Positions 2,923-40,400 of a stretch of 61,077 nt of DNA are shown here, piece after piece. The notes beneath the pieces were generated by a model. That model had not been told where the DNA came from. It worked only from the letters and a program-made list of their open reading frames with translations, and made no database searches. This DNA comes from Candidatus Peribacteria bacterium (lineage in GTDB: Bacteria > Patescibacteriota > Gracilibacteria > Peribacterales > Peribacteraceae): assembly GCA_028286915.1 (NCBI GenBank), contig JAQBQQ010000003.1:1-61077 (forward strand). Direction: 5' to 3'. The position numbers and the translations under genes were made by a program. The number at the start of each line of letters is the position of its first letter. Positions within the stretch are counted from its first letter, which is position 1.

Positions 2923-3285
2923 CTACAGTAAATATTTTTGAATATTCGGCCACAATTCATCTTCATCCATATCGCTTTTTACCAGGTAGTCTTTGGCACC
3001 AAGTTCAATACACTTTGATTGATCAAGCTCATCGCTAAGATTGGACAGAATGATAACAGGAAAATTGAACGAATTCTGCCGCAAAAATGCCAGCACGCTG
3101 TACCCGTCACGCTTGGGCATAAGCAAGTCCAGTAGCAGCAAATCGGGTGGAGATTTTTGAATTTCCGCAACGGCATCATCACCATTGGATACGACGATAA
3201 CATGTACCTGGTGTTCTTCCAGGCCCAATTGGATCGTTTCCCGTAAGAAAGGCTCATCCTCGGCTACTAAAATAGTTTTCATCAT
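2923..3285 (-). CDS. REC-only response regulator paired with histidine kinase
   Basis: 120 residues, a single receiver domain with no output domain. Acidic pocket ED at 9-11, phospho-acceptor D53 in LLLLDLLMP, Ser/Thr switch near 81 and conserved K103 in the DYLVKSD motif. Its ATG overlaps the kinase stop codon in an ATGA arrangement (4 bp), so the two are translationally coupled. Without an effector it must act through protein contacts or as part of a phosphorelay. A close paralogue of identical length and residue spacing lies at 17230-17592. Confidence 0.93.
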   Translation of the reverse strand: MMKTILVAEDEPFLRETIQLGLEEHQVHVIVVSNGDDAVAEIQKSPPDLLLLDLLMPKRDGYSVLAFLRQNSFNFPVIILSNLSDELDQSKCIELGAKDYLVKSDMDEDELWPNIQKYLL

Positions 3286-5501
3286 ACGGAAGCTGGAAGT
3301 ATGAACGGAAGTGTGACAGAAAAAGTAGTGCCTTCGCCTTCCTCGGACACGAAGGATACAGAACTATGCAGCAATTTTGCCATAATAAATGCAAGATACA
3401 ACCCCAGGCCGGTTCCATCAGGCTGGCGGAGAATGGCATTATCTGCCCGAAAGAACTTCTGGAAAATACGCTCCTGCTGATGAGCCGGAATACCGACACC
3501 GGTATCTATGACTTGAATTTCCAAGTGATGGGACGCACGCACCAGATTCACGCGTATCGAGCCGTTCTCCTTCGTGTACTGAATGGAATTCCTGATCAGA
3601 TTGGAAATAATTTCCTTGAGGAGTTGCCCGTCTGTCTCTATGACCGGATCACCCTCAACTGACAACAAAAAATTCAGATGTTTCTCTTCGCAAATTGCAG
3701 CCGACTCTTCATGAATATCCTCAATAAGCGTCGCCACATTCACCTTCATGGATTTTGGCAGAATATGGCCCGCTTCTACCCGCGAGACGGTAAGCATGGC
3801 ATTAATGGTATCGGCCATGACGACAGTGGCATTCCTGGCTGCGGAAAGCATATTTCTGTGTGAATCCTGCAAAAAATTCTCCGCTTTCTGCAAACGGCCA
3901 AGCGCCCAGCGAATAGTGGTAAGCGGCGTTCGCAGCTGATGGCTTGCGAGCGACATAAATTCGGATTTCGCCGCATCTATACGCTTATCCCGCGTTACGT
4001 CTCTGTACAGAAAAATCTGCCCCAAAAATGTTTGATCATCCATAATAGGGACGTAGTCACGAAATAAAATGCGTCCGTCTCTCAACAAAATCTCCTGATT
4101 CAACACCAGCTGACGATTCTGGAATATTGCATGAAATGTTTCGGTGTATTCAGCCGGCTGCTGCACGACACTTTGCAGGCTGTCTAAAAATTCAAAGTAA
4201 TGACGACCTACCAGTGCATGCGGCGTATCCGACAGTTTAAAAAAATCACAAAAATTCTGATTTACCTCAATAATATAATTTTTCTCGTCCAATACGAGGG
4301 CACCCATAGGAAGCTGGGCGATGACATTTTTAAAACGCTGGAGCGAAGCACGATCCTGTTTTTGCGATATTTGCAGCGCATGTGTCCGTTGCTCCACTTT
4401 TTGCTCCAGCACTTCATTCAAATGCCGTACTTCTTTTTCTACGCGTATCCGCTCCTCAATCTCGAATTGCGCCTCTCTGTATAACCGGGCATTTTCAATA
4501 GCCAGTGCCGCTCGTCCGCCAAGGTTCTCCGCAAATTTTAAATCCTCTGTTCTGTAATTTTTATTTGATTCGGCAGCTATGAAAGAAATCGTGCCAAGAA
4601 CTTTTCCATTCGCCACCATAGGAACGATCATAACGGACCGCATGCCGAGTTCCCGCAAAATAGCCAAGTGCTCGTCATTTTGGGCGGACATCTTCACCAT
4701 GTCATCACTAATATCCGTATACAGTTCGGGTACCCCCGATTTAAACACACCATACACACCGGAATGTTCATCCGGACTATGGGGGTATTTTTTATCCAGG
4801 TCCCGTGCCCACTTCACTTTTTGGGGATTTACGTGTTCCACGGCTACGTTCTGCGCAATGCCTTTGTTGTCCACAATATGTACAACGCACCAATCGGCAA
4901 ATTTAGGCACAACCAGGCGGGCCAGCGAAACAAGTGTTGTCGTATAATCCAATGACGAGGAAAGAATGGACGTGGCGTCAGATAGAAACAGTGCATTTTC
5001 TTCGTTTCGCTTTCGTTCAGTCAGATCATGAAAAATATTAATAACGTATTCTACTTGTCCTTGTGCGTCTTTTACCGGAGTGGATTTTAGCAATGACCAG
5101 CGTTCTTCGCCGGTTGCCCGTATACGAAATTGCAGTAGCTGCTCGGACGGATTTCCCATCAATGCCAACCTTGATGGCATGTTCTGCATAGGCAAAGATT
5201 TACCGTGCTCATCAAAGATTTCAAATTTCCCCATAATATTCTCCACCGGCTCATGAAGTAACTCTTCCGCGGAAGCGTAACCGGTAACAAGTGCAGCCGG
5301 CTCATTGGCATATATAAGCGTTCCATCCGGCGCCTGCAGCGTAATTCCATCGGCAATGCCGCGCAAAATAAGCTCCAAACGCTCTTTGGAAAATTCCAAA
5401 GTCGGCAGCAGGGGAAAAGAAAGGGGACTCATAAGCCGTTCTGCCGTTTTTTTGATTACAGAAGATACGGCAATACGCTTTGGAAGAGGCGGAGTGGACA
5501 T
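3282..5501 (-). CDS. Soluble hybrid-sensor histidine kinase (PAS-GAF-PAS-HisKA-HATPase)
   Basis: 739 residues from the ATG; a GTG three codons upstream (5510) is the alternative. Domains in order: PAS (~40-165), GAF (~180-345), a coiled-coil linker, a second PAS (~390-510), HisKA with phospho-acceptor H521 in SHQLRTP, and an HATPase with N box (NLIRNSIQYT), G1 (DTGVGIP), F box and G2 (GTGLGL). No transmembrane helix is visible, so it senses a cytoplasmic signal. It is co-transcribed with the REC protein and divergent from the polysaccharide locus, with about 200 bases between the starts; control of that locus is possible but not shown. Confidence 0.93.
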   Translation of the reverse strand: MSTPPLPKRIAVSSVIKKTAERLMSPLSFPLLPTLEFSKERLELILRGIADGITLQAPDGTLIYANEPAALVTGYASAEELLHEPVENIMGKFEIFDEHGKSLPMQNMPSRLALMGNPSEQLLQFRIRATGEERWSLLKSTPVKDAQGQVEYVINIFHDLTERKRNEENALFLSDATSILSSSLDYTTTLVSLARLVVPKFADWCVVHIVDNKGIAQNVAVEHVNPQKVKWARDLDKKYPHSPDEHSGVYGVFKSGVPELYTDISDDMVKMSAQNDEHLAILRELGMRSVMIVPMVANGKVLGTISFIAAESNKNYRTEDLKFAENLGGRAALAIENARLYREAQFEIEERIRVEKEVRHLNEVLEQKVEQRTHALQISQKQDRASLQRFKNVIAQLPMGALVLDEKNYIIEVNQNFCDFFKLSDTPHALVGRHYFEFLDSLQSVVQQPAEYTETFHAIFQNRQLVLNQEILLRDGRILFRDYVPIMDDQTFLGQIFLYRDVTRDKRIDAAKSEFMSLASHQLRTPLTTIRWALGRLQKAENFLQDSHRNMLSAARNATVVMADTINAMLTVSRVEAGHILPKSMKVNVATLIEDIHEESAAICEEKHLNFLLSVEGDPVIETDGQLLKEIISNLIRNSIQYTKENGSIRVNLVRASHHLEIQVIDTGVGIPAHQQERIFQKFFRADNAILRQPDGTGLGLYLAFIMAKLLHSSVSFVSEEGEGTTFSVTLPFILPASV

Positions 5502-5698
5502 AAATGACACAGGAGAATAGCACTTTTTGTACGTTCGTATCCATTACACTTTCCGGAAAGATTGTAATCGGCCCCGAAACGATATCAAGAACATATGTCA
5601 ATAAATTTGTTGTAAGACTGAAAATCCAATCGCGTCAACGATGGCGCACGGCAGAAAGTTCGCGCACACATTCTCATAATCCAATTTTCTCCTCACCC

Positions 5699-8014
5699 AT
5701 GGACCACCCATTCTCCGCACTGGATACCGAACTGGATACAGAAGCAGCATATGCAACAAGCAAATCGCTAAAATCAGCGTCTGATAATGATGCTGATTTG
5801 CAGCCCGACAATTTTTCGCTGCCGAGCACAGACAAGCATACGCCACTGCTCGTCAGTATTGTGGTACCTGTTTTTAACGAACGGGAGACGCTGCCGCTGC
5901 TGCTTTCGCGGCTGCAACGCACCATGGCACACACAAATTATCATGTCGAAATTATTATCGTGGATGATCATTCCAATGACGGTACACGCGAATTTTTGCA
6001 AAACCATACGAATACGAACTCTGTTCATGTGCTGCGCAAACGTGGCAAGCGCGGAAAATCCTATTCGCTAATTGAAGGATTTCGCCGCGCCAAAGGCGAT
6101 GTCATCGCTATGATTGACGGCGATCTGCAATACCCGCCGGAAGCGATTCCTGCCATGGTTCGCACATTGCAAAAGGTGGATATAGTGGTAGCCAAGCGCA
6201 TGCGCTTCAAAACATCCAGACTGCGCAATACGCTCAGCTACTTGTTCCGGCTGGTCTTCGGACGCATACTGCTGGGGCTGAATGTCGACGTGCAATCCGG
6301 TCTGAAAGTGTTTCGCAAAGAAATTCTGGACACGGTGGAACTAAAAACATCAGCCTGGGGTTTTGATTATCAATTCCTCTATAAGGCCAGGCGGATGGGC
6401 TACACCGTGGGAGAGAAAGAAATTATTTTTGAAGAACGGAAATTCGGGCACAGCCATGTAAAGACCATCAGTACAGCTTTAGAGCTGGCATGGGGCGCTT
6501 TGCGGCTAAGGCTGTCTTATATTCCCCGGGATCTGTTCGCTTTTCTGTACTACCCGCATGCGTCGGAGCATGAAGTAAAAAACGAACACAATACGACAGA
6601 CTACTTATTTTTGCCCGATATCCAAAGCAGCAAAAAACACATCTATAAAGAAACGGTTTCGCTTGCTGTCGTATCGCTCCTTATTATGTCTGCCATTATT
6701 GGCGCGTTAAGCTATGTGCTCCGTAGTTCGCCGCTCGTTATTCTGTCCGGCATTCTCTCGGTAGTCTATCTGGGGCTCATCGGCTTTAAGCTGTACGTCG
6801 TCCACCAGTCACTCAATCGCAAGCTTCTGTCATTCAGCAGGCGCGATGTAGCGGCCATTAAAGATGAGGATTTGCCGCTATATACCATTCTGATTCCTCT
6901 CTATAAGGAAGCCGAGGTCATTCCGCAGATTGTCAAAGCCATGACAAGCATTGATTATCCAACCGATAAACTGGAGATTCTTATTACCGTAGAGGAATAC
7001 GATCACGAGACGATCGATGCCATACGGCAGGCCAATATGCCGCCGCACTTCCGCATGCTTACGCTGCCGGACGTGCAACCCAAGTCCAAGCCAAAAGCGC
7101 TGAATGTGGCGTTCAGTCACACCCATGGCGAATTTTTCGTTATCTATGACGCGGAAATCATCCCGGATGCCGATCAACTGAAGAAAGCCTATCTTGCCTT
7201 CCGGAAAGACAGGTCGCTTGCCTGCGTACAGACACGTCTGGATCATTATAATTTAAACCAGAACTGGATCACCAAACTTTTCAACGCCGAGTTTTCCTTC
7301 TATTACGACTTATTTTTACCCGGCTTGCAAAAACTGGGGTACCCGTTGCCGCTGTCGGGCCACAGCACACATTTCCGGCGGCAGGTATTGGCGGATATCG
7401 GCCTGTGGGACCCGTACAATATGACCGAGGACTGCGACGTGGGTATTCGCCTGGCGCGCAAGGGCTACAAAACGGAAATCCTTGATTCCCTGAGCCAGGA
7501 AGAAGCCACGTGCACCTTTGATTCATGGGTAAAGCAACGCTCGCGCTGGATGAAAGGCTTCATTCAAACAGCCATTGTGCACTTGCGTCACCCTGTCCGC
7601 TTTAAAAATGAACTCGGCAGCTGGAAAAACTTCGGCGCCTTCCTGCTTATTGTGCCGGGCAGCGTGGTGATGAACGTATTAAATCTTTTCTACTGGGGGC
7701 TGCTCGTATTATGGTTTACCACTCACTCGCCGGTTATCCAGTTACTATTCCCGCGATTTATTTTGTACTTTTCTCTGCTGTCATTCGTATTGGGCAACTT
7801 CATGTTCACGTATTTGAATCTGATCGGTTCGTATAAACGCAAGCGGTTTTCTATGGTGAAGTACAGCCTGCTCTCATTTGTCTATTGGCTTATGCTGGCT
7901 TATGCCGGCATTCGGGCAACGATTCAGCTCTTTACGAGCCCGCATCGTTGGGAGAAGACCACTCATGGCACCCATCTCCTCCCAAACTCCCTCTATGCAG
8001 TCCCCGTCTCGTAG
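5699..8014 (+). CDS. Double glycosyltransferase: DPM-like GT2 fused to cellulose-synthase-like GT2
   Basis: 771 residues from the chosen ATG; the ORF extends upstream without protein-like character. The first GT2 domain (~45-270) resembles dolichyl/polyprenyl-phosphate sugar transferases (VSIVVPVFNE, IIVDDHSNDGT, MIDGDLQYPPE). Two transmembrane helices (~320-375) lead to a second GT2 domain (~395-640) with the processive-synthase motifs: YDAEI, TEDCDVG and KQRSRW (QxxRW). It ends with four membrane spans and the typical SPHRWEKTTHG tail. No PilZ domain is present. The first domain may charge a lipid carrier and the second polymerise, but donor and product cannot be read from sequence. It overlaps the next gene by 50 bases. 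Confidence 0.9.
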   Translation: MDHPFSALDTELDTEAAYATSKSLKSASDNDADLQPDNFSLPSTDKHTPLLVSIVVPVFNERETLPLLLSRLQRTMAHTNYHVEIIIVDDHSNDGTREFLQNHTNTNSVHVLRKRGKRGKSYSLIEGFRRAKGDVIAMIDGDLQYPPEAIPAMVRTLQKVDIVVAKRMRFKTSRLRNTLSYLFRLVFGRILLGLNVDVQSGLKVFRKEILDTVELKTSAWGFDYQFLYKARRMGYTVGEKEIIFEERKFGHSHVKTISTALELAWGALRLRLSYIPRDLFAFLYYPHASEHEVKNEHNTTDYLFLPDIQSSKKHIYKETVSLAVVSLLIMSAIIGALSYVLRSSPLVILSGILSVVYLGLIGFKLYVVHQSLNRKLLSFSRRDVAAIKDEDLPLYTILIPLYKEAEVIPQIVKAMTSIDYPTDKLEILITVEEYDHETIDAIRQANMPPHFRMLTLPDVQPKSKPKALNVAFSHTHGEFFVIYDAEIIPDADQLKKAYLAFRKDRSLACVQTRLDHYNLNQNWITKLFNAEFSFYYDLFLPGLQKLGYPLPLSGHSTHFRRQVLADIGLWDPYNMTEDCDVGIRLARKGYKTEILDSLSQEEATCTFDSWVKQRSRWMKGFIQTAIVHLRHPVRFKNELGSWKNFGAFLLIVPGSVVMNVLNLFYWGLLVLWFTTHSPVIQLLFPRFILYFSLLSFVLGNFMFTYLNLIGSYKRKRFSMVKYSLLSFVYWLMLAYAGIRATIQLFTSPHRWEKTTHGTHLLPNSLYAVPVS

Positions 8015-10781
8015 TACCCGGGAAATCACTCCTTATGAGTGGTTTCTGCTCGCAGTCGCCACCGTCGCCGGCGTAGTCATGGCATATTTCCTCTACCGTG
8101 CCGGACTGGTAAAAATTCTTACGGATCAGAATGCTCATTTGAATTTTTCCCGTCTTACGTTTGACAGCATTACGCCGGGCGTCAGCCAGATAGGTTTTTG
8201 GCCGCCCTTGTTGCACTTTTTGCTTATCCCGTTCGTGGCCGTTCCGTTTCTGTACCAGTCCGGGCTGGCCGGTGCGTTTGTTCTTATTCCCTGTCTTATT
8301 GTCTGCGTCCTGTTTTTATACCGCATCGCCTATAGACTGACCGGCAATACATGGCTGGCCAGCGTGGGAGCGCTGCTTCTGGTGAGCAACCCCTACATTC
8401 TGTATTACAGCGCCACGCCCATGATGGAAATTTTGTATCTGGCAAACCTGTTCGGCGCCACGTACTTCATGCTGCTATGGCTGGAAACACCGCGACTGCG
8501 CTATCTGCTGGGGCTCGGACTGTTTGTGACACTGACCAGCCTGTCGCGCTTTGAAGGCTTCGTGCTCATTCCGTTGTCCATTATTATTCTCTTCCTGGAT
8601 CAGCTGCGTCGCAAAAAAGGCTACGAAGAACTGGAAGCAACATTACTCATGTTTGCATTCCTGGCTGTCGCGGGCCTGGTCTTTGTCGTCACCTACAGCT
8701 GGGTGTATGGCGGTAATCCGCTGGCATTTACCGGCGGCTCCTGGATTCGTGATCCGGCGGCAGATATGCGTCCCGCGCGTCATAATATTCTGGTTGCACT
8801 TTCGTATGTGTACCAGGCATCAGTCTATATGCTTGGCACGCCAATGGTTGTCGTATCACTGGCATGTTTTATTCTACTGATGTTTTTTTCCAGAAAACGG
8901 TTTTTGGAAATCAGCGCACTGCTCATGCTGGCGAGTCCCATCATGTTCGTTATTGTGTCCATGTTTTCCGGCTCCATTACCATTAACGTACCGGCAGTAC
9001 CGCCGTTCCATATTTTCCATAATGACCGTTACACACTTACCTGGATCGGCTTCGGTATTCTGGCACCCATTCTGTGCATCAACGGAGTGCAGTCCATTAT
9101 CCGCAACAAGGCACTTGCCGTCCTTGGCAGAAGTATCGGCATTGGCTTATTGATTATTCTGATACTGAGCAACACCTATGAATTTGTAAACGCCGCCGTG
9201 TTCAATAATTTTGATGTTATCCGCGCCAATATCAACGCGCCGGTGGCGGGCCAGCTGGAAGTTGCCGATTATCTGAAATCCAATTACGACTACGGAAAAA
9301 TTCTTACCGCCCGCGTGGATAACGATCCTATTATCGCCAATGCCGGTGTGCCGTTACACGATTACATTTATGAAGGAAACTATCGCTACTTCAACCAGGC
9401 GGTAAAAGAACCCTGGTTATTTGCACGTTATGTTATTATGCACAATGCCGTGGGCAAAAACAGTTCCTGGGTGGAGACATCGGAACCGGTATACCGGGAG
9501 CTGGGCAAATCCGAAACGTTCAAAATTTATTATCAGCTGATACTTCAGAACAAAGAGCGCAAGCTCTATAAACTGAATACCGAGCGGGTGCTGGCGCTGG
9601 CCAAAGCCCGTAATTATAATCTGTCTGCCATTCCGTCGTTAAATCCGAATATTGCGCTCTGGGAACCATCAAGCGTCTATAAAAATATGCAGACACCGGT
9701 AGATGCACCCGGAACAACCAGCGCGCTGCTGGCATCGAAAGCATACATGAAAAGTGATCTGATGGATTTTTACGAAAAACGCCTCATGCCGGAGTACCGG
9801 AAAGGCTATTACGTCTCCCCTCAGGGAGAAGGCAATTCGGAGTCGCAAAGTTATGGCATGCTGCAGTCGCTGTGGGCCGATGACAAAGCGACTTTCGATA
9901 CCATCCGGGGCTGGAACAAGCGGAATATTCAACGAAGTGATTCTCTCTTCTCATGGCAGTTCTCCATAAAAAATGGGAATCTCCAGATTGATGATGCAAA
10001 TTCCGCCACCGACGCGGATACCGATATAGCGTACGCGTTGTTACAAGCAGCTGATCAATGGACGGATGATGCGTATAAAAAAGACGCACTGGCTATCATA
10101 AATAGTATCTGGAACAAGGAAACCAAAGCACAGGGCGACGGACGGCATGTTCTTGCCGGTCCGTGGGCGGCAAATTCCGGCAGCCTGGTACTGAATCCGT
10201 CGTATATTTCTCCCGTGGCGTACCGCGCATTTGCAAAAGTGGATACCGCACATGACTGGAAAAAAGTAATCGAAACCAGTTACGTGGATCTCCACGCGTC
10301 TTCACGCAGAAATTTACCGGACGGCACGGCCGTTTTCCTGCCGCCAAACTGGATAACATTAAACGCAACAACAGGCGCATACGAACCGTTTGCACAGAAA
10401 CCGGATTCGCAGGATTATTCGTACGATGCGTTCCGTACATTCTGGCGCGTATCACTGGATAACGAACGTCATCCGTCGGAAGCCGCGAGAATGTACCTCA
10501 TGCGCGGCCGCACAACGTTTGAAAAGGAGATACAAAACAATAACACGCTCTGCAGCGTGTACTTTTCCAATGGCCGCTGTGAAGCCACGATAGGAACGCT
10601 GGCCGGCCCGCTGAGTGTCTGGCTGACAGCCGATCCGGCACTTGCAACCGATTTGGTATCCAAGCAATACGTTGATAAGGCCAGTCTCTCGCTGTCTCCG
10701 GAAGCGACTTTTTACGAGAAGAGCTGGTACTGGTTCAGCTTATGGCTATGGAGCGAAAGCAGAAACACGGCAGTCTCGTAA
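7965..10781 (+). CDS. GT39/ArnT-like membrane glycosyltransferase fused to GH8 glucanase
   Basis: 938 residues. The start follows a strong ribosome site (GGGAGAAG, 7 bases before the ATG) and lies inside the end of the preceding gene. Residues ~22-445 form a multi-spanning membrane region resembling the PMT/ArnT/GT39 lipid-linked sugar transferases, with a D-x-x-x-H loop after the first helix. Residues ~590-925 are a GH8 domain: proton-donor Glu626 in SESQSYGM and the family signature ATDADTDIAYALLQAA at 681-696. GH8 enzymes such as BcsZ trim beta-1,4-glucans during cellulose export. A single chain carrying both is unusual and couples transfer to hydrolysis across the membrane. Confidence 0.88.
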   Translation: MAPISSQTPSMQSPSRSTREITPYEWFLLAVATVAGVVMAYFLYRAGLVKILTDQNAHLNFSRLTFDSITPGVSQIGFWPPLLHFLLIPFVAVPFLYQSGLAGAFVLIPCLIVCVLFLYRIAYRLTGNTWLASVGALLLVSNPYILYYSATPMMEILYLANLFGATYFMLLWLETPRLRYLLGLGLFVTLTSLSRFEGFVLIPLSIIILFLDQLRRKKGYEELEATLLMFAFLAVAGLVFVVTYSWVYGGNPLAFTGGSWIRDPAADMRPARHNILVALSYVYQASVYMLGTPMVVVSLACFILLMFFSRKRFLEISALLMLASPIMFVIVSMFSGSITINVPAVPPFHIFHNDRYTLTWIGFGILAPILCINGVQSIIRNKALAVLGRSIGIGLLIILILSNTYEFVNAAVFNNFDVIRANINAPVAGQLEVADYLKSNYDYGKILTARVDNDPIIANAGVPLHDYIYEGNYRYFNQAVKEPWLFARYVIMHNAVGKNSSWVETSEPVYRELGKSETFKIYYQLILQNKERKLYKLNTERVLALAKARNYNLSAIPSLNPNIALWEPSSVYKNMQTPVDAPGTTSALLASKAYMKSDLMDFYEKRLMPEYRKGYYVSPQGEGNSESQSYGMLQSLWADDKATFDTIRGWNKRNIQRSDSLFSWQFSIKNGNLQIDDANSATDADTDIAYALLQAADQWTDDAYKKDALAIINSIWNKETKAQGDGRHVLAGPWAANSGSLVLNPSYISPVAYRAFAKVDTAHDWKKVIETSYVDLHASSRRNLPDGTAVFLPPNWITLNATTGAYEPFAQKPDSQDYSYDAFRTFWRVSLDNERHPSEAARMYLMRGRTTFEKEIQNNNTLCSVYFSNGRCEATIGTLAGPLSVWLTADPALATDLVSKQYVDKASLSLSPEATFYEKSWYWFSLWLWSESRNTAVS

Positions 10782-10810
10782 GATATATTTTTACTTTCCA
10801 CATTCCAAGC

Positions 10811-11497
10811 ATGAAATACTCTCAAGCCATCCTCACATTTCTGGCCGGTACCGCCATACTAACCGGTGTCATGCTGCATCGGTACGATAATACCAATGCG
10901 CTGGCGGCGCGCTTGTTCGCCCCAGGCGCGTCATCATCCTTCGCAAGCTCTAAAAATACGGCACAAAAAACAATGACAGCCGCGGAACGAAAAGCAAGAC
11001 GCCTGGCCGGACGGACTGCACACTCGCAGCCGGCATCCTCCAGTGCCTACAGCAGAGCGGCGCCGGTTATCGGGTCCGCCTCCTGCAGTCCCATTGATTT
11101 CACCATGAGCACGCAGGCGCTGTCTGCCAATAACGCACTGGAAGGAACCATTTTCTTCAAGAATGAATCCAATCATGCCTGTACCGTATTCGGTTCACCG
11201 GTACTCACGCTCATGGACGCGCATACTGCAATGCTGACTGTACTACAGTCCAAATTGGATGCGACACAACCAAAAGCCATAACATTGTCCACCGGCGAGC
11301 AGGCACAAGTCCGTTTCCGCTGGAGCAACGGCTGCGCAGACAAAACCGGACCATTCTCCGTAAAAGCATTATTTACCGGCTATTCAGAATATCTGTCCGC
11401 TCCGTTACAAACTGCATTGGGAGAAACAATTACCACCATGCCTGCCTGCAAGAACTCAGAGGAGAAATCAATACTGCAGACAGGCGTATTTCAATAG
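10811..11497 (+). CDS. Anchored exported protein with DUF4232-like domain
   Basis: 228 residues from the ATG that begins a hydrophobic export/anchor segment (MKYSQAILTFLAGTAILTG), 29 bases after the GH8 fusion gene, so likely the third gene of the same operon. After a Ser/Ala-rich linker comes a beta-rich domain (~95-215) with features of the actinobacterial DUF4232 family: ALEGTIFFKNESNHACTV, LSTGEQAQVRFRWSNGC and conserved Cys. Function is not known; its position suggests a periplasmic or surface accessory to polymer synthesis or export. Confidence 0.7.
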   Translation: MKYSQAILTFLAGTAILTGVMLHRYDNTNALAARLFAPGASSSFASSKNTAQKTMTAAERKARRLAGRTAHSQPASSSAYSRAAPVIGSASCSPIDFTMSTQALSANNALEGTIFFKNESNHACTVFGSPVLTLMDAHTAMLTVLQSKLDATQPKAITLSTGEQAQVRFRWSNGCADKTGPFSVKALFTGYSEYLSAPLQTALGETITTMPACKNSEEKSILQTGVFQ

Positions 11498-11505
11498 TGC
11501 GTCGC

Positions 11506-11541
11506 CGCCAACTTCCCCCTAAAAGCAGGGAGAAGTTGGCG
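11506..11541. terminator. Hairpin between convergent polysaccharide genes
   Basis: A 10-bp perfect inverted repeat (CGCCAACTTC and its complement) sits between the convergent DUF4232-like and GH6 genes. No T run follows on either strand, so it is called a bidirectional end-of-transcript hairpin by position only. Confidence 0.5.
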
Positions 11542-11552
11542 TAAGTGTCGCA

Positions 11553-13712
11553 TTACCAGCCGGCACGCTGTGCCAGGCCCAAGGCGTAATCCGCCCACCA
11601 ATTACCGGCATTTGGTCCGCCGTTGCAGTTACCATCGGATTCACCCGGACGCTTGAGCCAGAGAAAGGCATCAACAATAGAACGACCGGTTGTCGTTGTC
11701 GGCTTTTGACCCAGGGCACGGCCGGACGGGTTGCACCATTCGTTATTGGCAGCCGGGCCGTTACCGTTGCGGGCGGTATCGATGACGGCATGCTTGCCGC
11801 CCGTGGCACCGGAAATAGCTTCGGCAAATGCAATATTCTCATCGTTCGTACGGAAGTTGGACACGTTAACGGCAAAGCCGGTGGCATTATCCACGCCCGA
11901 TTGCTTGAGACGGCCCGCCATATCGGCGGCGGCAATCCAGGCGCCGTGTGCCGCATCTAAATAGGTATATTGATTCTTAAACGCAGCCACCGCGTAACTC
12001 AGCAGACCGGCACGCTCATTTTTATTGGCACAATCCCATTGAGCCAACGCATCCGGCTCCACAATAATAATTGCTTTTTCGGAACCCAGGGCGCCGGAAA
12101 TGGTATCAATCCACTTTTTATACGCGTCACTGCTGCCGGCACCTCCGGCTGAGTAACTGCCGCAGTCACGATTCGGAATGTTGTACACCACAAACGTAGC
12201 CAGTGCACCCTGATCCCGGGCCACTTTCATTTCATTCCGGACATCATTTCCCACGTCTGCGCTCCAGTTTCCTAACCATTTGGCAGTGGAGGAATTGGCA
12301 ACTTTATCCATAAGCGCCGCGTCACTCGGGCGCGATTGCCTCCAGCTGTCGGCCGTGTGCCTGGCATCTGAATTATTGTTCACGTATAAGTTGGAACCGG
12401 CCAATGAACCGCCGCCGTTTGAAGTGCGAGGCTGCGGTGACGGAGTCGCCTGTACCAGCTGCGCCGCAGCACCGCCCTTGGTAACCGTCACAGTCTTTTT
12501 ACCGATGGTTATTCCTTTTGCATCCCTGGCAACAAACTCAAATATATACCTGTTATCGGTTCGCCAGTTCCAACCGGAAATATCTATAAGCTGCTGACGC
12601 GTCATGCCATCGGGCCCTTTTTCGGTTATGGCGTTCGGCGAGCCGCCATCCACCGACCATGTCGCCGTATAATCATTAAATGGCAGACCTGTGTTCACTC
12701 GCATAAAAAACTGATTCGGTACCTGCGTCTGATCCAGCGGATACAGGACCTTAAAATCTGTCACCGTCCTGGCAGCAGAGGAAACAGAAGAAGAACTTGC
12801 CACTGAAGGTGTTGCCGATGAAGAAGATAAAGAAACAGCTGATGAAGACGAAGCCAGAGAAGTACTGGATACACCGTTTTCAACGGTTACGGGAATATCG
12901 CGTGTGGCAATAGTTTGCTTTTGCTCGTTTGTCACAACCAGCGTAATAATCTGCTTACCGTTGGGCCAATCAGCAAAGTTAATGTTTGCTTCTTTGTGCG
13001 GAAAGCCGTTTGCATTGCTCGGCATAACCGTCGGCTGACGATTTTTCGCACTCCAGGTCATAGTGTAATGCTCCACATCTGCAATTTCTCTCACCAGTGC
13101 CTTCACCGCCTGCACTCCCTTTACAGTCGTATTATCCGTAGGCCACCATACTTCTATAGGAACAGTATTAACAGGCGCAACCGACGCCACCAATATCGCA
13201 GCACTACTGACGGATGAAACTGCCGTCCCTGGGACATATACGGTAGACGGAGAACCATCGGAATAGATCGATACGTCTTTCGAGGCAATCAACGCATTCT
13301 GCGAATCTCTTACGGTGAATGTAAGCAGATACGGGCCATTGCCTTTCCATTTCCAATTCGTCACATCAACGTTTGCAGCTTTTACCGTGCCAGCCGTCTG
13401 CAAGTCATTCTCGCCACCGTTATCCACCTTCCAGGTAGCACGGTACGAATCAGTAGGAAGACTTGTCATTTGCAGTGTAAAAATTTGTACCCCGGTAAGA
13501 TGCAAATCATTGGTCGGCCAGAGTACATTCAGGCTTACCGGTGTATTGTCGGCTGTCCCAGCTATAACGGAAGATGAAAGCAACGGACTGGCAATCAACG
13601 CGCATACGGCCAAAAGACAAACGGCCGTTTTGACGGAAAAAAATCCACGCTGCGACACGCTAGTCACTACACTCTGAACCGGTCTTGTTTTTCTTGAGGG
13701 AACTGTCTGCAT
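11553..13712 (-). CDS. Secreted GH6 glucanase with three Ig-like repeats
   Basis: 719 residues. A basic N terminus and hydrophobic stretch (~28-50) form a signal peptide. Three related beta-sandwich repeats (~55-150, ~180-280, ~325-415) share a WP-(T/L)-D opening, Y-x-x-T/A-W-x-V/A core and D/N-W motif; they are separated by Ser-rich linkers. The C-terminal domain (~430-719) is a glycoside hydrolase family 6 domain: NIPNRDCG with D516, IIIVEPDALA with the presumed general acid D554, NVSNF, IDTARNGNG, NEWCNPSGRALG and the LWLKRPGESDG loop. GH6 enzymes cut beta-1,4-glucan. Convergent with the synthase operon. GH6 enzymes also accompany cellulose-synthase-like genes in Streptomyces. Confidence 0.93.
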   Translation of the reverse strand: MQTVPSRKTRPVQSVVTSVSQRGFFSVKTAVCLLAVCALIASPLLSSSVIAGTADNTPVSLNVLWPTNDLHLTGVQIFTLQMTSLPTDSYRATWKVDNGGENDLQTAGTVKAANVDVTNWKWKGNGPYLLTFTVRDSQNALIASKDVSIYSDGSPSTVYVPGTAVSSVSSAAILVASVAPVNTVPIEVWWPTDNTTVKGVQAVKALVREIADVEHYTMTWSAKNRQPTVMPSNANGFPHKEANINFADWPNGKQIITLVVTNEQKQTIATRDIPVTVENGVSSTSLASSSSAVSLSSSSATPSVASSSSVSSAARTVTDFKVLYPLDQTQVPNQFFMRVNTGLPFNDYTATWSVDGGSPNAITEKGPDGMTRQQLIDISGWNWRTDNRYIFEFVARDAKGITIGKKTVTVTKGGAAAQLVQATPSPQPRTSNGGGSLAGSNLYVNNNSDARHTADSWRQSRPSDAALMDKVANSSTAKWLGNWSADVGNDVRNEMKVARDQGALATFVVYNIPNRDCGSYSAGGAGSSDAYKKWIDTISGALGSEKAIIIVEPDALAQWDCANKNERAGLLSYAVAAFKNQYTYLDAAHGAWIAAADMAGRLKQSGVDNATGFAVNVSNFRTNDENIAFAEAISGATGGKHAVIDTARNGNGPAANNEWCNPSGRALGQKPTTTTGRSIVDAFLWLKRPGESDGNCNGGPNAGNWWADYALGLAQRAGW

Positions 13713-18873: not shown

Positions 18874-20214
18874 TTATAAAAAAAATCGTCCCAAAATAAT
18901 TCCCCAGTACAGCACCACTGTGCAAACCGCGAAGTAAACAACCGTCAGCGATTCCACGCGAAAACTTCGGCCTTCACGGAAGATCATGAACAAACAGTAC
19001 GGAATAAAATAGTAGCGCTGCTCTATGAGCCACGACGGGATAAGATACAAAACAGCAAGCGGATACATGCTGTAAAATGAAGACCACACGAGTCTGGTGG
19101 CGGCAATAGAAAGAACCGAATAAGCGATAGGCAGAAAGAACAAAACGCGCAGAAGCGCGGACTGCGTGAAAAAAATAAGAATACGGTTACGCAGCCACCA
19201 GGAGTAATCCTGCTGGTTGAACGGATGCGTATTCTGGAACGTAAACCAATAGAAGAAGAAAAACAGAACAAGCAATACCAGCACCGAATCCATATGCACT
19301 TTCAACAACCGACGAATGCGCGGCAGATTGGCAATATTGAGCGGCAGAAAAATGAAGAAAAACAGAAATAGCAGTAAGTATATATTCCCAAAATGAATCG
19401 CCGGGAACGGATGCGCTTCTTTATCGCCAATGGCAATGCCATGGTTCCAGTATACGAATACAGCAAAAAGCACCATGCCCACCAAAAAAGTGAACGACCG
19501 AAAGACCGCCCTCCATAACACCTGCCTGCTCTTCAGCACTTCTCTCACGCGCCGGCGAGCTTCCTGGAAATATGTTTCACCGGGCAGTGATGGCGTGACG
19601 GAATGGTGAATCCAGACGAGTAAAAATAAAAATCCCAACCAGACAATGGCGTTTTGCCGCGTCAACACGCAAAGAATACTAAGTATGCCCGCCAGCCAGT
19701 AATGCCTGGTAAGTACGGCATACAGAGCCAGAAACAAAAAAAGTAATGATGAAATATCGGTATAAAGCAGGAATAAAAAGGGAAACAGAACGGGCAGCAG
19801 AATATATTGCATGGTTTTCAGAAGCGCGTGCTCGGGATCCAGAAAACGAACGCACAAAAAGAAGGCAAGGATAGAAAAAAGGCTGATACCAAAGGAAATG
19901 GAACGAAAAACCGGCAGCGTAGCACTGAACCCGCTAAGCCACCAAACCGCAGCAACGATACCATGGTACCCGGGCAACGTTGTCAGCGATGGAACCATGG
20001 ACCAGTTATATTTGGTAAAGCGGGAAATCTGATCGAAGTGAAAATTCTCATCGCTGATGAGACTATGTTGCGACATTAGTAAAAAACTCCACCCGACAAG
20101 AAGACATGTCACAAAAAGCAGCGCCGCCAAAAAGAGTATCTGCATTTTCTCGCGACGAGGCGAAACCGGCAGTGGTGCGAAAGGTGCGGAGACCATGCGA
20201 ATTGCGAAGTGCAT
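18874..20214 (-). CDS. ALG10/DIE2-like membrane glycosyltransferase
   Basis: 446 residues with about ten membrane spans. The first luminal/periplasmic loop reads SDENFHFDQISRF followed by LTTLPGYHG, which matches the eukaryotic ALG10 pattern (D-E-x-F-H then I-T-T-x-P-G-x-Y). A later loop, HPFNQQDYSWWLRNRI, mirrors the ALG10 motif H-P-x-x-x-A-D-N-R-H-Y-x-x-Y. ALG10 adds the terminal alpha-1,2-glucose to lipid-linked oligosaccharide using dolichyl-phosphate glucose. A bacterial homologue could use polyprenyl-phosphate glucose, perhaps made by the DPM-like domain at 5.7 kb. Assignment rests on motif resemblance only. Confidence 0.68.
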   Translation of the reverse strand: MHFAIRMVSAPFAPLPVSPRREKMQILFLAALLFVTCLLVGWSFLLMSQHSLISDENFHFDQISRFTKYNWSMVPSLTTLPGYHGIVAAVWWLSGFSATLPVFRSISFGISLFSILAFFLCVRFLDPEHALLKTMQYILLPVLFPFLFLLYTDISSLLFLFLALYAVLTRHYWLAGILSILCVLTRQNAIVWLGFLFLLVWIHHSVTPSLPGETYFQEARRRVREVLKSRQVLWRAVFRSFTFLVGMVLFAVFVYWNHGIAIGDKEAHPFPAIHFGNIYLLLFLFFFIFLPLNIANLPRIRRLLKVHMDSVLVLLVLFFFFYWFTFQNTHPFNQQDYSWWLRNRILIFFTQSALLRVLFFLPIAYSVLSIAATRLVWSSFYSMYPLAVLYLIPSWLIEQRYYFIPYCLFMIFREGRSFRVESLTVVYFAVCTVVLYWGIILGRFFL

Positions 20215-35012: not shown

Positions 35013-36320
35013 TTAAGGCTGTAATCGATTCACATCTCTCGGAAACAACGTGGCTTCTTTCACGCTGTGAAGACCGATAATCTTCTGCGTCAAACGTTCC
35101 AGACCCATGCCGAATCCGCCATGAGCAGGAAGACCATACTTAAAAGCCATGAGATAATACTTAAAACCAAGATGCTCAGGATCGCCGCCGACAGCTTTCA
35201 ATTGTTCTACCAGCTTGTCATATCGATGCTCACGACGGCTGAGTGTTGCAATTTCCACACCACGAAACAAGAGGTCAGCCCGGTCTGCCACGTCAGGATT
35301 CAACTCATTTCGATAATGATAAAACTTCATATCTTTGGCTGGAAATTCAGAAACGAACACGGCTTCACTCTTCCATTCTTTTGCAGAATATTCACAGATC
35401 CATCGTTCCTCCGCCGGCGTCGGATCTTTTTCCTTCGTTGTGTCTTGACCGGTCGACTCTGTGTATAACCTGTGAAGCTCTTTCAGGCTCACAATCGGTA
35501 ATTGCTGTTTAAGTACAGGCTTTACTGCTCCAAGAGCCAGTAATTCTTCTTCATGATCTTTCCATGCATTAGTACAAGCAACATGCAATATACCACCGGC
35601 GATTGCGAGCACATCCTGCAAGCCTTCAATGAAACCCATCTCCACATCTATATGCATGAACTCTGTCATGTGGCGCGTTGTATAACTGAGTTCCGCTCGA
35701 TACGTGGGATTAATTTCATATACGCGCTCAAAGACACCAACCATAATCTGCTTATAAAATTGTGCCGATTGCGCAAGTGTTGCCTCTTTGCCGAAGTAAT
35801 CCAACTTAAATACTTCTGCGCCGCCTTCCGTGGAACCCGCAAGAAGCTTCGGACTATTGAATTCGGTGAAATCCTGTGACCGCAAATAATCACGCACAGA
35901 CTGCTTCACATTTGCCTGTACCTTGAAAATACCACGTTCAATGACGTTTCGGAGTCCTATTACTCTGTTCTCAAATAATGTCTCCAGGTTTTCCGGTGTA
36001 TGATCAATGGCTTTGTCTACTTCAATCGGCGAAACATGCTCCACAGAAACATCAACCGTAATAACCGGATGATGAATCTCCGCGCCACTTGGTGCTTTTT
36101 CTAGGCCTATCACATTACCTGTGACTGTTAGTACTGTGCCATTATGTAAGCCACGTAGTTTTTCGGATTCATTTGTTTCATCGACAATTTGTATAAGCCC
36201 ATGTCGATCACGCAGTATGAGAAATGTAATTTTCCCAAGTTGCCGCTTTTTATGCAACCAACCAGAAACCTGTACTTGCTTGCCGGTGTGATACTTAAGC
36301 TCAGATGACAGGATACGCAT
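35013..36320 (-). CDS. aspS: Archaeal-type (probably non-discriminating) aspartyl-tRNA synthetase
   Basis: 435 residues, the short AspRS form without the bacterial insertion domain. N-terminal OB fold (VQVSGWLHKKRQLGKITFLILRDRHG), class II motif 2 (RVYEINPTYRAE, HMTEFMHIDVEMGF) and motif 3 (GFGMGLERLTQ), ending LFPRDVNRLQP. This form usually charges both tRNA-Asp and tRNA-Asn, with Asn made by GatCAB; those genes are not in the window. A putative attenuator precedes it. Its DNA is more AT-rich than the genes to its left. Confidence 0.93.
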   Translation of the reverse strand: MRILSSELKYHTGKQVQVSGWLHKKRQLGKITFLILRDRHGLIQIVDETNESEKLRGLHNGTVLTVTGNVIGLEKAPSGAEIHHPVITVDVSVEHVSPIEVDKAIDHTPENLETLFENRVIGLRNVIERGIFKVQANVKQSVRDYLRSQDFTEFNSPKLLAGSTEGGAEVFKLDYFGKEATLAQSAQFYKQIMVGVFERVYEINPTYRAELSYTTRHMTEFMHIDVEMGFIEGLQDVLAIAGGILHVACTNAWKDHEEELLALGAVKPVLKQQLPIVSLKELHRLYTESTGQDTTKEKDPTPAEERWICEYSAKEWKSEAVFVSEFPAKDMKFYHYRNELNPDVADRADLLFRGVEIATLSRREHRYDKLVEQLKAVGGDPEHLGFKYYLMAFKYGLPAHGGFGMGLERLTQKIIGLHSVKEATLFPRDVNRLQP

Positions 36321-36341
36321 ATTGTAGAAAGAAAATGTAAG

Positions 36342-36363
36342 AAAAAACCCGCTTGAGGCGGGC
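36342..36363 (-). terminator. Intrinsic terminator inside the aspS leader
   Basis: On the minus strand CCCGC-CTCAA-GCGGG is followed by six T, ending 22 bases before the aspS start. It lies downstream of the candidate aspS promoter, so it would stop transcription before the gene unless disrupted. Confidence 0.8.
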
Positions 36364-36386
36364 TTTTGTGAATCAGGTTAGGACAG

Positions 36387-36431
36387 TATCACAAACAACC
36401 CGCAAAAGCAGAGTTATTATCGTTTGTGATA
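36387..36431 (-). promoter_or_regulatory. Upstream hairpin of the putative aspS attenuator
   Basis: A perfect 10-bp stem TATCACAAAC/GTTTGTGATA. Its 25-base loop contains GCGGG (36399-36403), which can pair with CCCGC of the terminator stem. This gives two mutually exclusive folds, the usual design of a transcription attenuator. No T-box motif is seen. Confidence 0.55.
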
Positions 36432-36452
36432 GAAAGATGGATCATTGCAGAA

Positions 36453-36480
36453 AATATAGCAATTTTTGCTTCGAAAGCAA
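36453..36480 (-). promoter_or_regulatory. Candidate aspS promoter
   Basis: On the minus strand TTGCTT, a 16-base spacer and TATATT preceded by TGC (extended -10). The transcript would begin near 36446 and carry a leader of about 125 bases with the two hairpins described. The 260 bases between here and the protease gene hold nothing else I can identify. Confidence 0.6.
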
Positions 36481-36739
36481 TAAATTTGGTCAGCGAGGGG
36501 GTGAAGGTCACTACTTATTTCACTTTTCCGCAGTGTTCCGCGAAGGAGTTTTTCTAAGGCATTATCCGGAGAAATCGATGTATCGGAAAGAAGTGTATTT
36601 GGAAGAGCTTAACAACCATTCTATGGAAGCATTCTGTACGCCAAGTAAATAGAGACAAGGAATGGTTACACTCTATAAATATAAAAACTTCTTATGTCAC
36701 CATAAAGCAAAATGAGGCTTAAATTAAAAATTGCTTAAT

Positions 36740-38185
36740 TCAAAGCGAAACCTTTAGATCAAATTTATACTTATCCAGATTTTTTTCCTTAACAAGGAAG
36801 AATTTATACAACATCACAGCTATTGACCTACGATTAATAGGGCCATTCCTATCAAACCATTTTGATGACCACTCCTCATTTTTGACGATATTAATATCAA
36901 GAGAGGTCTTTAGGTAATCTGCATACCATTCACTATCCTCTAAATGCTTATATGAACTATTGTGATGCTTTGATATATCAAAATTTGGTACCAGCAGCAT
37001 TTTAATTGCTTCCATATTTGATACAGACTGATCAGGCTTAAAACTGCCATCCGAGTACCCAGAAACCCATCCCTTCTCCTTTCCAAAGCAAACATATTTT
37101 GCGAACCACTGAGCTTGAACATCAGTAAAACAATTTTTATATCGATCTTCATCAGGGGTTTCAAAAAATGCCTCAACGATCACTTTGAAAAATTCAGCAC
37201 GGTTAATTCGATTTAACGGCATAAAATTACCATCACTATACCCAGTCATAATTCCAGAGGATTTTAAGAAAGTATAAGCTCTGGTACTTACGCATAAATC
37301 TTGAGATCCTACCTGATAGCTTTCAGAGAACTTTTCATGCCCTTTAAGATAATCACAACCTTTTTCTGGTACATCTGAGAAAATTAGCCTTTCTACTGCC
37401 ACAGGCTTTATGTCTTTCTGCATTTTTTGTTGAATTATATTAGGTGTTGATGGCAATGAATTTATTGGAGGAGTGGCTGGTGCAGAAGAAATGGAAGGCT
37501 TTAGGTGTGCGAGACTCATAAGGTCATCTAAATATATAAGTGGCGTTATAAGACCAATATTTTCGGAACTTGACATTGTATATGCTGTAGCAACTCCAAA
37601 TAAATTACCTGCATCATCAAAGACAGGGCCACCCGAAACGCCGGGAATAATTTTGGCATCTGTTTTAAGTTCTGTAGTCATGCCCCCTTCGATAATTTTT
37701 CCTGCAATCTGCCCATTAGTAAGAGTGATAGAAAGACTACCTTTGCCTATTGCTGGATAGCCAAGAATTTGAATATCTGTGCCAGTTTCAGGAATAACTT
37801 TTGACGGCGATAAAAAATTGAAATTACAAGGAATGTTTGCCTCTCCTTCAGTGATTATCAATGCAAGATCTCTTTCTGAATGACGTATTACAGAAGTTGG
37901 TTGCCATGCACATGGCCAATCTGGTTCTTCGTTTGCATTCGTAGGAATGATAAAAATACTGTCAACAAGGTGCCCGGCATCATTTTCTACAACGTGCTTG
38001 TTTGTTACAACCATACCGTCAGGCGATGCAATAAACCCACTGGCTCTACCTATTAAATTGCCATCCGAATCATAGATTCCTATTAATACAGTACTACTAA
38101 TGGCAGTCTTACTAATACCAGCTGCAATTGAACAAATTGGCTGAAAGAATGCCAAGCATGCAAATATCGTTATTAATTTTCTCAT
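36740..38185 (-). CDS. Trypsin-like serine protease with C-terminal SLH domains
   Basis: 481 residues with a signal peptide (1-22). The protease domain (~25-230) has a complete triad: H64 in TNKHVV, D106 in SERDLALI, S184 in PGVSGGPVF. A Pro/Ser linker (~235-270) leads to two or three SLH-type units (~290-470: SSGIMTGYSDGNFMPLNRINRAEFF, KGWVSGYSDGSFKPDQSVS), which bind cell-wall polymers or the S-layer. It would be held on the surface and cut external or envelope proteins. It marks the left side of the AT-rich region. Confidence 0.9.
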   Translation of the reverse strand: MRKLITIFACLAFFQPICSIAAGISKTAISSTVLIGIYDSDGNLIGRASGFIASPDGMVVTNKHVVENDAGHLVDSIFIIPTNANEEPDWPCAWQPTSVIRHSERDLALIITEGEANIPCNFNFLSPSKVIPETGTDIQILGYPAIGKGSLSITLTNGQIAGKIIEGGMTTELKTDAKIIPGVSGGPVFDDAGNLFGVATAYTMSSSENIGLITPLIYLDDLMSLAHLKPSISSAPATPPINSLPSTPNIIQQKMQKDIKPVAVERLIFSDVPEKGCDYLKGHEKFSESYQVGSQDLCVSTRAYTFLKSSGIMTGYSDGNFMPLNRINRAEFFKVIVEAFFETPDEDRYKNCFTDVQAQWFAKYVCFGKEKGWVSGYSDGSFKPDQSVSNMEAIKMLLVPNFDISKHHNSSYKHLEDSEWYADYLKTSLDINIVKNEEWSSKWFDRNGPINRRSIAVMLYKFFLVKEKNLDKYKFDLKVSL

Positions 38186-38271
38186 AATGGGTATGAAAGA
38201 GCATGATGTCCTTCTTTACAAGAGATTTTTTCAGTTTGAATAAAGCAAGCGCAATTCAAATTACAAAAAAA

Positions 38272-39216
38272 TTAGTCTTTCAATATATATCGTGTTCTTA
38301 AATTTAATAGATCACAATAATTCCTATATCGCTGCTCGTCAATTTCACTTAATTCGGCACCATAGAAAAGCTCGCGCATTATTGGATCCGATTGCGGTGC
38401 AACGGCACTCAAAGACAATGCATCGTCTAAAATTCGCAACGCCTCGTTACCAGCGCCGTGACCAACATGCATTTGCAGATATTCACTAATGTCTTTGTAC
38501 ATTGTCTCATTCTTCTTTGATCCTTTTGTAAAAACAGGAATACGCCGCATATCGCTTTGTAGATCCGCTTTCATGACTGTATCCCAACGCTTTGGAATTC
38601 TGTCAGTTTCTGTAAAATACAATGCAGGTGTAATTGCTAACAAGTCGTCTTCGGAAAGTTCTCTCACTTTCGTTCGCACTTCAGCCGTGTAATTCCATAC
38701 CTGCCGATGCGGCTTTTCTACAACTCGCCATGATGGCAGTTCGCCATCTACCAAAGCATTCTCTGAAAATACCAAAAGGAGCTTTGAAGTGTCATGCGAT
38801 GGGATTTGATCATACCGATACGCAAACTTCTTCTTATTCTTCCCTTTACGCCGGTTATGCCAGCCCTTGCCTTCAGTTACCACTGCAGACGGCTGACCGG
38901 CTGCATTCATGCCGCAGATGACAGCATCGATTCGGCGACGACCATTCAGTATAACCTCCAATAATACTTTCTGGTCTTCGGTAAGCTCTGCATGTTCAAA
39001 GGCCTTTCCTAAGCCCACAATCGAGCTGTCCCAGGCATTTACCTGTTCCCGCATATTCTGCTCTTCTTCAAGCGAAGACGGCTGCAAACCGTTCTGTATA
39101 ACTGCCGCAGTTAACTGTTCCACGATCTTTTTTCTATGCGGCAGGTCTTTGGATGCATTAATAATTTCGGCGGCATCCGAAGGGTAATAGCTGTAAGAGG
39201 GTAATTTTTCGACCAT
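38272..39216 (-). CDS. PD-(D/E)XK-like protein, copy 2
   Basis: 314 residues, soluble. A nuclease-like core is visible: E87 in LLEVIL, D97 in RRRIDAVICG and E115-G-K117 in VVTEGKGW, the D and E 18 residues apart. The same layout occurs in the upstream gene and in the N-terminal region of DUF2075 proteins. The C-terminal half (IPVFTKGSKKNETMYKDISEYLQMH) is helical and unrecognised. It begins 20 bases after the stop of the other copy, so the two form an operon. Role unknown; a defence or DNA-processing function is a hypothesis. Confidence 0.65.
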   Translation of the reverse strand: MVEKLPSYSYYPSDAAEIINASKDLPHRKKIVEQLTAAVIQNGLQPSSLEEEQNMREQVNAWDSSIVGLGKAFEHAELTEDQKVLLEVILNGRRRIDAVICGMNAAGQPSAVVTEGKGWHNRRKGKNKKKFAYRYDQIPSHDTSKLLLVFSENALVDGELPSWRVVEKPHRQVWNYTAEVRTKVRELSEDDLLAITPALYFTETDRIPKRWDTVMKADLQSDMRRIPVFTKGSKKNETMYKDISEYLQMHVGHGAGNEALRILDDALSLSAVAPQSDPIMRELFYGAELSEIDEQRYRNYCDLLNLRTRYILKD

Positions 39217-39236
39217 AGCGGAGCAGAGTAATGGAT

Positions 39237-40178
39237 TCAGCTAAAAAATAGCCAGTAGATTATTTGTAGAAATAACCGTATCGGCATAAAGACGATGCGC
39301 AACAATAGGTAAAGAGCGTAGCCAATTGATAGTCGCGACTGTTTGGCTTGTCGATTCATCGGAATACCAAGGAAGCGAGGCGTGAAGTCCGGGCGCTTCG
39401 GCAATTCTTTCAGGTGTGCTAAAGATTCCCACTTTAATTCCTGCAATGCATGAAGTGTGGCCAAGCCGTCTCCGTAACCCACGCGCTCTACAAGCCGCTT
39501 ACGTAACGCCTGCCAATACTCCAGAGTATAAAGTCTATTCGGCTCGCCTTTCGGGCGATTACCGAAAAGAACCATCCTTTTATATCCAGTCAGCGACGCT
39601 GCATTATGCAGAAAGGCGTAGGCACTAAATTGAATGCCATTGTCGGAAAGATGACAGATTTGCTGTACTCTTCTGATGTGCTCTTCGTAAGCACGCGCCT
39701 GTTCCGCCGGATGCATAACATTCTGCCATTCGCCTTCACGACGGATTTGAATGTAGTTTTTCTTAATGGATACGCGCATATCAATACGTTCCCATTGCTT
39801 TAGCTCAATAATAACTGCATTTGGCCTATCTTGGTTGTCTTTGCCGCATATCAGGGCATCCATGCGCTGCGGATACGCCATGTCCTGCGACGGCAGACAG
39901 TATTCAATAATGATAACCTGATCTTGAAGATCAGACGCCAATAAAAGGCTAGCAAGATCCGGCAGTGAATGTGCCCATGCCTCTACCTCTTTCAAGCCGG
40001 GCACCACTTTTAAGTTAGTAAGATAACCATCACGTATTTTCTGTGCAAGTACGTGCGAGTCAGCCGATTCAGCAATAAATTCCTTTACCGTATTGGCATA
40101 CAACCAATTACCACTAAACAAATCGCTCTGACCGTGTGGGTCTTGGGAGTTGGGGAGCAAAATGGAGGATGGGGGCAC
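39237..40178 (-). CDS. PD-(D/E)XK-like protein, copy 1, with C-terminal membrane segment
   Basis: 313 residues from a GTG; no in-frame ATG exists before the core domain. The putative nuclease core has E92 (IIIEYCLP), D107 (YPQRMDALICG) and E125-L-K127 (VIIELKQW), followed by Q-A-R-A-Y-E-E-H helices as in DUF2075 N-terminal domains. A hydrophobic C terminus (~285-313) could insert in the membrane, which is odd for a nuclease. No helicase motor is fused or nearby. First gene of a two-gene unit with its paralogue. Confidence 0.65.
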   Translation of the reverse strand: MPPSSILLPNSQDPHGQSDLFSGNWLYANTVKEFIAESADSHVLAQKIRDGYLTNLKVVPGLKEVEAWAHSLPDLASLLLASDLQDQVIIIEYCLPSQDMAYPQRMDALICGKDNQDRPNAVIIELKQWERIDMRVSIKKNYIQIRREGEWQNVMHPAEQARAYEEHIRRVQQICHLSDNGIQFSAYAFLHNAASLTGYKRMVLFGNRPKGEPNRLYTLEYWQALRKRLVERVGYGDGLATLHALQELKWESLAHLKELPKRPDFTPRFLGIPMNRQAKQSRLSIGYALYLLLRIVFMPIRLFLQIIYWLFFS

Positions 40179-40400
40179 GGGCCTTATTGCAAAAGGACTA
40201 TAAATTATTTATATAAATTTTCCAAATCCTATTTAAACTTGTGAAGGTGGACAATACTGTATGAGGTGCGAACTGAAATATCGGAGACGCATATAAAGTT
40301 GGAAGGTGCATTTTTCCTTATACGGCAGACAGTTTTTTGATATTGGAATGCAACAGTTTTCTTAAAAATGACACGAGAGTGCCAAGACAAAGTTATAAGC

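Follow-up and report, generated by a model that had tools for sequence, protein, structure and literature searches.

Four genes were determined from the open reading frames and Pfam matches at positions 5699-13712 of the window, by which the whole analysed stretch of 61,077 nucleotides is meant: a gene of a twin GT2 protein, a gene of a GT39::GH8 fusion, a DUF4232 gene and a convergent GH6 gene. Both ends of this span are start codons: an ATG in frame with the GT2 lies at 5699 and, on the minus strand, the GH6 frame starts with an ATG at 13712. All Pfam family matches at the locus exceed the curated cut-offs. The source genome, that of a Candidate Phyla Radiation (CPR, Patescibacteria) bacterium, measures 1.43 Mb in 48 contigs and was judged 100% complete. 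The features of the locus and a further gene downstream of it are the following.

5699..8014, plus strand: twin GT2 protein, 771 aa from the ATG at 5699; the frame is open from 5504
5855..6331, plus strand: GT2N, the N-terminal GT2 domain (PF00535), polyprenyl/dolichyl-phosphate-sugar-synthase-like
6881..7723, plus strand: GT2C, the C-terminal processive-type GT2 domain, with DAE at 7145, SGHSTHF at 7355, TED at 7424 and QRSRW at 7535
7965..9602, plus strand: GT39/PMT_2-like GT-C membrane half of the fusion (PF13231), with conserved D54 (8124) and E197 (8553)
9603..10781, plus strand: GH8 half of the GT39::GH8 fusion (PF01270), with E626 (9840), D683 (10011) and D821 (10425)
10811..11497, plus strand: small DUF4232 protein (PF14016, 1.3e-9), with a hydrophobic stretch at the N-terminus
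11553..13712, minus strand: convergent GH6 protein, with a hydrophobic segment at the N-terminus, beta-rich repeated domains in the N-terminal part, linkers rich in Ser and a C-terminal GH6 domain
11616..12341, minus strand: GH6 catalytic domain (PF01341), with D516 (12167), D554 (12053) and D693 (11636)
12393..13535, minus strand: repeated N-terminal domains of the GH6 protein, with the motif WWPTD...GVQ...W.VD
18874..20214, minus strand: DIE2/ALG10-like glucosyltransferase homologue (PF04922, 1.5e-37), 5 kb from the locus

In the window, the start of the GT39::GH8 frame (ATG at 7965) and the end of the GT2 frame share 50 bases, and an overlap of the two frames was found in both family relatives as well. 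The DUF4232 gene between GH8 and GH6 had no match in the relative loci. An earlier note on this DNA had correctly listed the GT2, GH8 and GH6 but overlooked the second GT2 domain (GT2N), the fusion of GT39 to GH8 and the DUF4232 gene. A mechanism is suggested by two of these parts, GT2N and the GT39 half of the fusion. Upstream of the GT2 and divergent from it, the minus strand at 2923-5510 is predicted to encode a PAS/GAF sensor histidine kinase and a response regulator, a possible regulator. Elsewhere in the window, the G+C content is lower at 36000-47000, where the end of a recombinase-like frame (44963-46663) overlaps tRNA-Ile (46642-46718); this region is a possible integrated element.

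The two GT2 domains of the first protein were detected by Pfam with E-values of 1.8e-42 (PF00535) and 4e-40 (PF13641). The nearest solved structures of GT2N are dolichol-phosphate mannose synthase (5mlz, 4.7e-25) and ArnC (6.7e-19). Judged by its sequence, this domain is polyprenyl-phosphate-sugar-synthase-like, with the similarity spanning the catalytic domain. GT2C carries the BcsA-type motifs DAE, TED and QRSRW, the last being the QxxRW motif that had been read earlier. The identity of GT2C was 20% to E. coli BcsA and 18% to PgaC, and at such values its sugar and linkage are unreadable from sequence. The scores with the CelA model TIGR03030 and the PgaC model were 81 bits (cut-off 699) and 123 bits, respectively, each far under the cut-off.

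In the tree, GT2C grouped with the class II synthases described below (100/97), and this group in turn with GT2s of Geobacillus, Hyphomicrobiales and actinobacteria (96/95), at a distance from BcsA; the deep joins are unsure, as long branches were flagged by the program. The contrast in identity to BcsA, 20% for the window's GT2C vs 33% for Sm669, is independent of these joins. Sm669, an unnamed tree reference, is a 669-aa S. meliloti GT2 of BcsA type from an unannotated record and may be BgsA. The description of the protein as a cellulose-like synthase in the narrow sense was thus not borne out, given its position outside the BcsA clade and the low CelA score. A match of GT2C to TIGR03111 had prompted a comparison with the XrtG-associated Gram-positive EPS locus, which was rejected, the score being 96 bits vs a cut-off of 364 and XrtG not being seen.

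Homologues of the twin GT2 in the same locus of two other genomes were 60% (G012) and 55% (G016) identical, and a second copy in the window's own genome (G000) was 45% identical. In that genome, a second pair of a twin GT2 and a GT39-like protein lies at L052 (G000:C1), 6436-11060, with a Cys-rich DUF4215-type repeat in the place of GH8. Longer frames of about 1340-1590 aa with GT2C homologues were found at L121 and also in G560, G481, G409, G365, G449 and G490; the L121 protein (6458-10612) ends C-terminally in a domain of GT4 type.

The second protein carries both a PMT_2 match (PF13231, 2e-9, 38.3 bits, cut-off 26.1) and a GH8 domain (PF01270, 1.3e-35, 123.5 bits, cut-off 24), which agrees with the GH8 that the earlier note had placed in the gene next to the synthase. 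In the alignment with E. coli BcsZ, E626, D683 and D821 correspond to the catalytic residues E55, D116 and D243, respectively. The nearest solved relatives of the GH8 half are bacterial endoglucanase structures (1.3e-21), and its score with the NCBIfam BcsZ equivalog NF008305 was under the cut-off (112 bits vs 299). In the GT39 half, D54, the acidic residue of the first loop, is retained together with E197 or D197 in 10 of the 12 aligned GT39s. The AlphaFold models of the fusion and of the twin GT2, each computed from a two-sequence alignment, had mean pLDDT values of 34 and 38, respectively; as these predictions are too poor for use, the GT-C fold and the topology were judged from hydropathy and from Pfam matches that are weak.

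Some relatives of the fusion have degenerate residues. In L057:5981-8554 the catalytic residues of GH8 are replaced with A, G and N, and in L058:7527-10265 GH8 residues are replaced with K and N and the GT39 half has lost D54 and E197 as well; both are possible pseudo-enzymes. These domains may therefore be structural in some relatives. In L128:8742-11405 (G449), which adjoins a twin GT2, the fusion partner of GT39 is a GH5 cellulase domain and not GH8. The Pss system of Listeria was considered as a parallel for GH8 and ruled out, as PssZ is placed in GH126 (PMC7479077).

The GH6 domain of the convergent gene was matched by PF01341 at 6.5e-58 (197 bits, cut-off 27), so that both hydrolase domains score to the families proposed for them. 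Its nearest solved relative is the M. tuberculosis Cel6/CelA1 structure (5.6e-71). D516, D554 and D693 belong to conserved motifs and do not vary among the 10 aligned CPR GH6s, and the catalytic residues are thus intact, as had been noted from the sequence. For the repeated N-terminal domains, Pfam gave no match; such domains occur also in other CPR GH6s and in a GH113 protein (L053:8621-10348). A second, lone GH6 of the window's genome was found at L011:8509-9483 (G000:C37).

The recurrence of the locus was determined in the window's family and in the phylum. GH8 was detected in 3 of the 74 family genomes, GH6 in exactly the same three, and the twin GT2 again in these three (3/71). In both family relatives, L009 and L010/L003, the gene sets are adjacent, and in L009 the GH6 sits on the opposite side of the GT2. 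Among 287 phylum genomes, GH8 was found in 18, GH6 in 11 and both in eight, where 0.7 were expected (hypergeometric P ~6e-9, a value which ignores the relatedness among genomes; the eight span the families f1, f47, f72, f87 and f92). In all eight, GH8 and GH6 are linked on the same contig within about 10 kb. The GT2-GH8-GH6 grouping proposed from the single locus therefore recurs, both among relatives and in remote CPR families. A GH8 gene adjoins a QxxRW GT2 in all 18 phylum genomes with GH8 (in one of them, G560, the contig holds only the GT2 end), and the CPR GH8 therefore looks biosynthetic, not degradative. The lack of BcsB and PilZ, to which the earlier note had drawn attention, extended to all 20 GH8 genomes searched with PF03170 and PF07238, while the positive controls were matched.

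In L010, a GalU-like gene adjoins the locus and a DIE2/ALG10-like gene adjoins GH6. Homologues of the latter, a family familiar mainly from eukaryotic N-glycosylation, were found in 11 of 71 family genomes, all three locus carriers among them. The protein is a possible accessory of the locus; as an obligate partner it was ruled out, its distribution being enriched and not exclusive.

Three kinds of CPR locus were distinguished. In class I (L059-L067), GH8 is a gene of its own and the GT2 is single-domain and of the BcsA clade, although the L066 protein, at 6.2e-87 with TIGR03030, is still under the cut-off; a PMT_2-type protein is present in eight of the nine loci and GH6 is nearby in five. 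Class II consists of the window, L009, L010, L058 and L068. In L058 the GT2 is single, not twin, and in L068, from a different family, GT39 and GH8 are separate genes with GH6 beside them. Class III (L053-L057) has a twin GT2 of a third clade and a membrane::GH8 protein, the GH8 being followed in L053 by a GH113 gene. GT39 was also found as a neighbour of GT2C without GH8, in L126, L128, L129, L131, Nonomuraea (hGT39, 4e-57) and the Geobacillus plasmid. In L131, a GtrA-type GT2N, GT39 and GT2C are three adjacent genes, and the twin GT2 therefore looks like a fusion of two functions which belong with GT39. The logic common to these loci, as far as gene content can tell, is that of a polymer synthase, a putative lipid-sugar loader, an outer-face transferase and a glycan hydrolase.

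With moderate confidence, we propose that the product of the locus is a surface polymer resembling a beta-1,4-glucan and carrying decorations, which would be polymerised, decorated from a lipid-linked sugar and trimmed at the membrane. From the families and the neighbourhood, we infer the sugar and its linkage, the lipid carrier, the topology and the sequence of events. By its family, GT2C would draw on a nucleotide sugar, in all likelihood UDP-glucose, to polymerise the chain, and would thread this chain through the single membrane. GT2N, similar to DPM synthase and ArnC, may transfer a hexose, on the cytoplasmic side, to a polyprenyl-phosphate carrier. The family of the GT39 half and the recurring GT2N-GT2C-GT39 linkage suggest that this half picks up the carrier-borne hexose at the outer face and transfers it either to the emerging chain or to an anchor. 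GH8, covalently tied to GT39 and probably outside, would cut or trim the nascent chain as BcsZ does in cellulose synthesis. The GH6, whose catalytic residues were observed, is presumably exported and may trim or release the polymer further. The pathway would run without BcsB or PilZ. The minimal and different beta-1,4-polymer pathway suggested earlier is a fair reading because of the hydrolase scores, the recurrent grouping, the BcsB/PilZ absence and the precedent of CslA with GH6; its beta-1,4 linkage is read from the hydrolases, GH6 and GH8 both pointing to a beta-1,4-glucan.

The product might instead be another beta-1,4-linked glycan, for example a mannan or an amino-sugar polymer, for which GH8 and GH6 are specialised. 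The higher score of GT2C with PgaC than with CelA points in this direction, as do the GH113 gene, of the beta-mannanase family, beside GH8 in the class III locus and the GDP-mannose pyrophosphorylase-like gene of the Geobacillus relative. The GH6 and GH8 families include enzymes for other beta-1,4 glycans, and since some GH6 enzymes cut such glycans, acting on chitin or peptidoglycan (PMC9040799), the alternative keeps a certain, rather low probability. It is weakened by the GH6-GH8 pairing that also accompanies the BcsA-clade synthases of class I loci, by the GalU-like gene adjoining the L010 locus and by the fact that a deacetylase was not found among the genes examined. Moreover, the GH6 family consists overwhelmingly of beta-1,4-glucanases, and the enzyme here is nearest to Cel6 endoglucanases.

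For the GT39 half, a role in anchoring the polymer to lipid or protein, or in aiding export, instead of adding side sugars, was likewise considered and appears fairly unlikely. Proteins are the substrates of PMT-type enzymes, which would fit anchoring, and so would the L058 GT39 without the two acidic residues; these residues are kept in most of the aligned GT39s, however, and the pairing with a polyprenyl-phosphate-sugar-synthase-like domain fits sugar transfer. The scavenging of environmental cellulose by the hydrolases, with GT2 and GT39 serving an unrelated cell-envelope glycosylation, agrees with the GH6 of G121, G134 and G205, which occurs alone, with neither GH8 nor a GT2C-like neighbour, and with the second, lone GH6 of G000:C37, but is already disfavoured and very improbable given that GH8 is covalently fused to a membrane glycosyltransferase in a frame overlapping the synthase and that a GH8 gene adjoins a QxxRW GT2 in all 18 phylum genomes carrying GH8.

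Returning to the decorated glucan-like polymer, a broader and more tentative proposal is that these loci represent a distinct, modular class of polysaccharide synthase in CPR bacteria, in which a polypeptide pair couples polymerisation, outer-face decoration from a lipid-linked sugar and cutting by a fused hydrolase, which is exchangeable (GH8 or GH5). The genomes of CPR bacteria are reduced, and for many of them a life in attachment to other cells is assumed; to our knowledge, their surface coats are largely uncharacterised. If the proposal is true, the recurrent compact glucan-synthesis set would provide a testable surface polymer for CPR bacteria, together with a new synthase layout, in which fusions tie the synthase to the lipid-sugar loader and the decorating enzyme to the trimming hydrolase. 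It would also be a small BcsB/PilZ-free system in which the minimal requirements of a beta-glucan synthase could be studied. In the open-access papers searched, no description of a CPR/Patescibacteria locus of this kind was found.

In comparison with known systems, all the parts are of known families and the overall job is known, whereas the arrangement differs from Bcs. The locus shares with Bcs a processive-type QxxRW GT2 adjoining a GH8 with the catalytic residues of BcsZ. It differs in that GT2C is outside the BcsA clade, the genome is without BcsB and PilZ, GH8 is fused to the GT39 half, and GH6 and a polyprenyl-phosphate-sugar-synthase-like domain are added.

The Streptomyces cslA-glxA-cslZ locus, the precedent cited in the earlier note, is real: a GT2 glucan synthase gene lies beside an oppositely oriented GH6 gene, CslZ (PMC9040799). 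The gene layout of a GT2 synthase with an adjoining, oppositely oriented GH6 is similar here, while GH8 and GT39 are present in addition, the four locus genes are of other families and no glxA-like gene was seen. In the case of the Geobacillus plasmid CP128455 (nucleotidyltransferase, BcsB, GT2, GT39), the GT2, a neighbour of a family-39 glycosyltransferase, shares about 36-39% identity with GT2C; that cluster, in contrast, has BcsB, GH8 and GH6 are not annotated in the stretch, and its sugar-nucleotide gene is GDP-mannose pyrophosphorylase-like, not GalU. We know of no experimental characterisation of it.

The pairs of GtrB, ArnC or DPM synthase with a GT-C enzyme likewise have a polyprenyl-phosphate-sugar-synthase-like domain next to a GT39/GT-C transferase, whereas the window combines these parts with a polymer synthase and also a hydrolase. 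The class I CPR loci resemble the window in their GH8, QxxRW GT2, PMT_2-like protein and often nearby GH6, and differ from it in the single-domain BcsA-clade GT2 and the separate GH8 gene.
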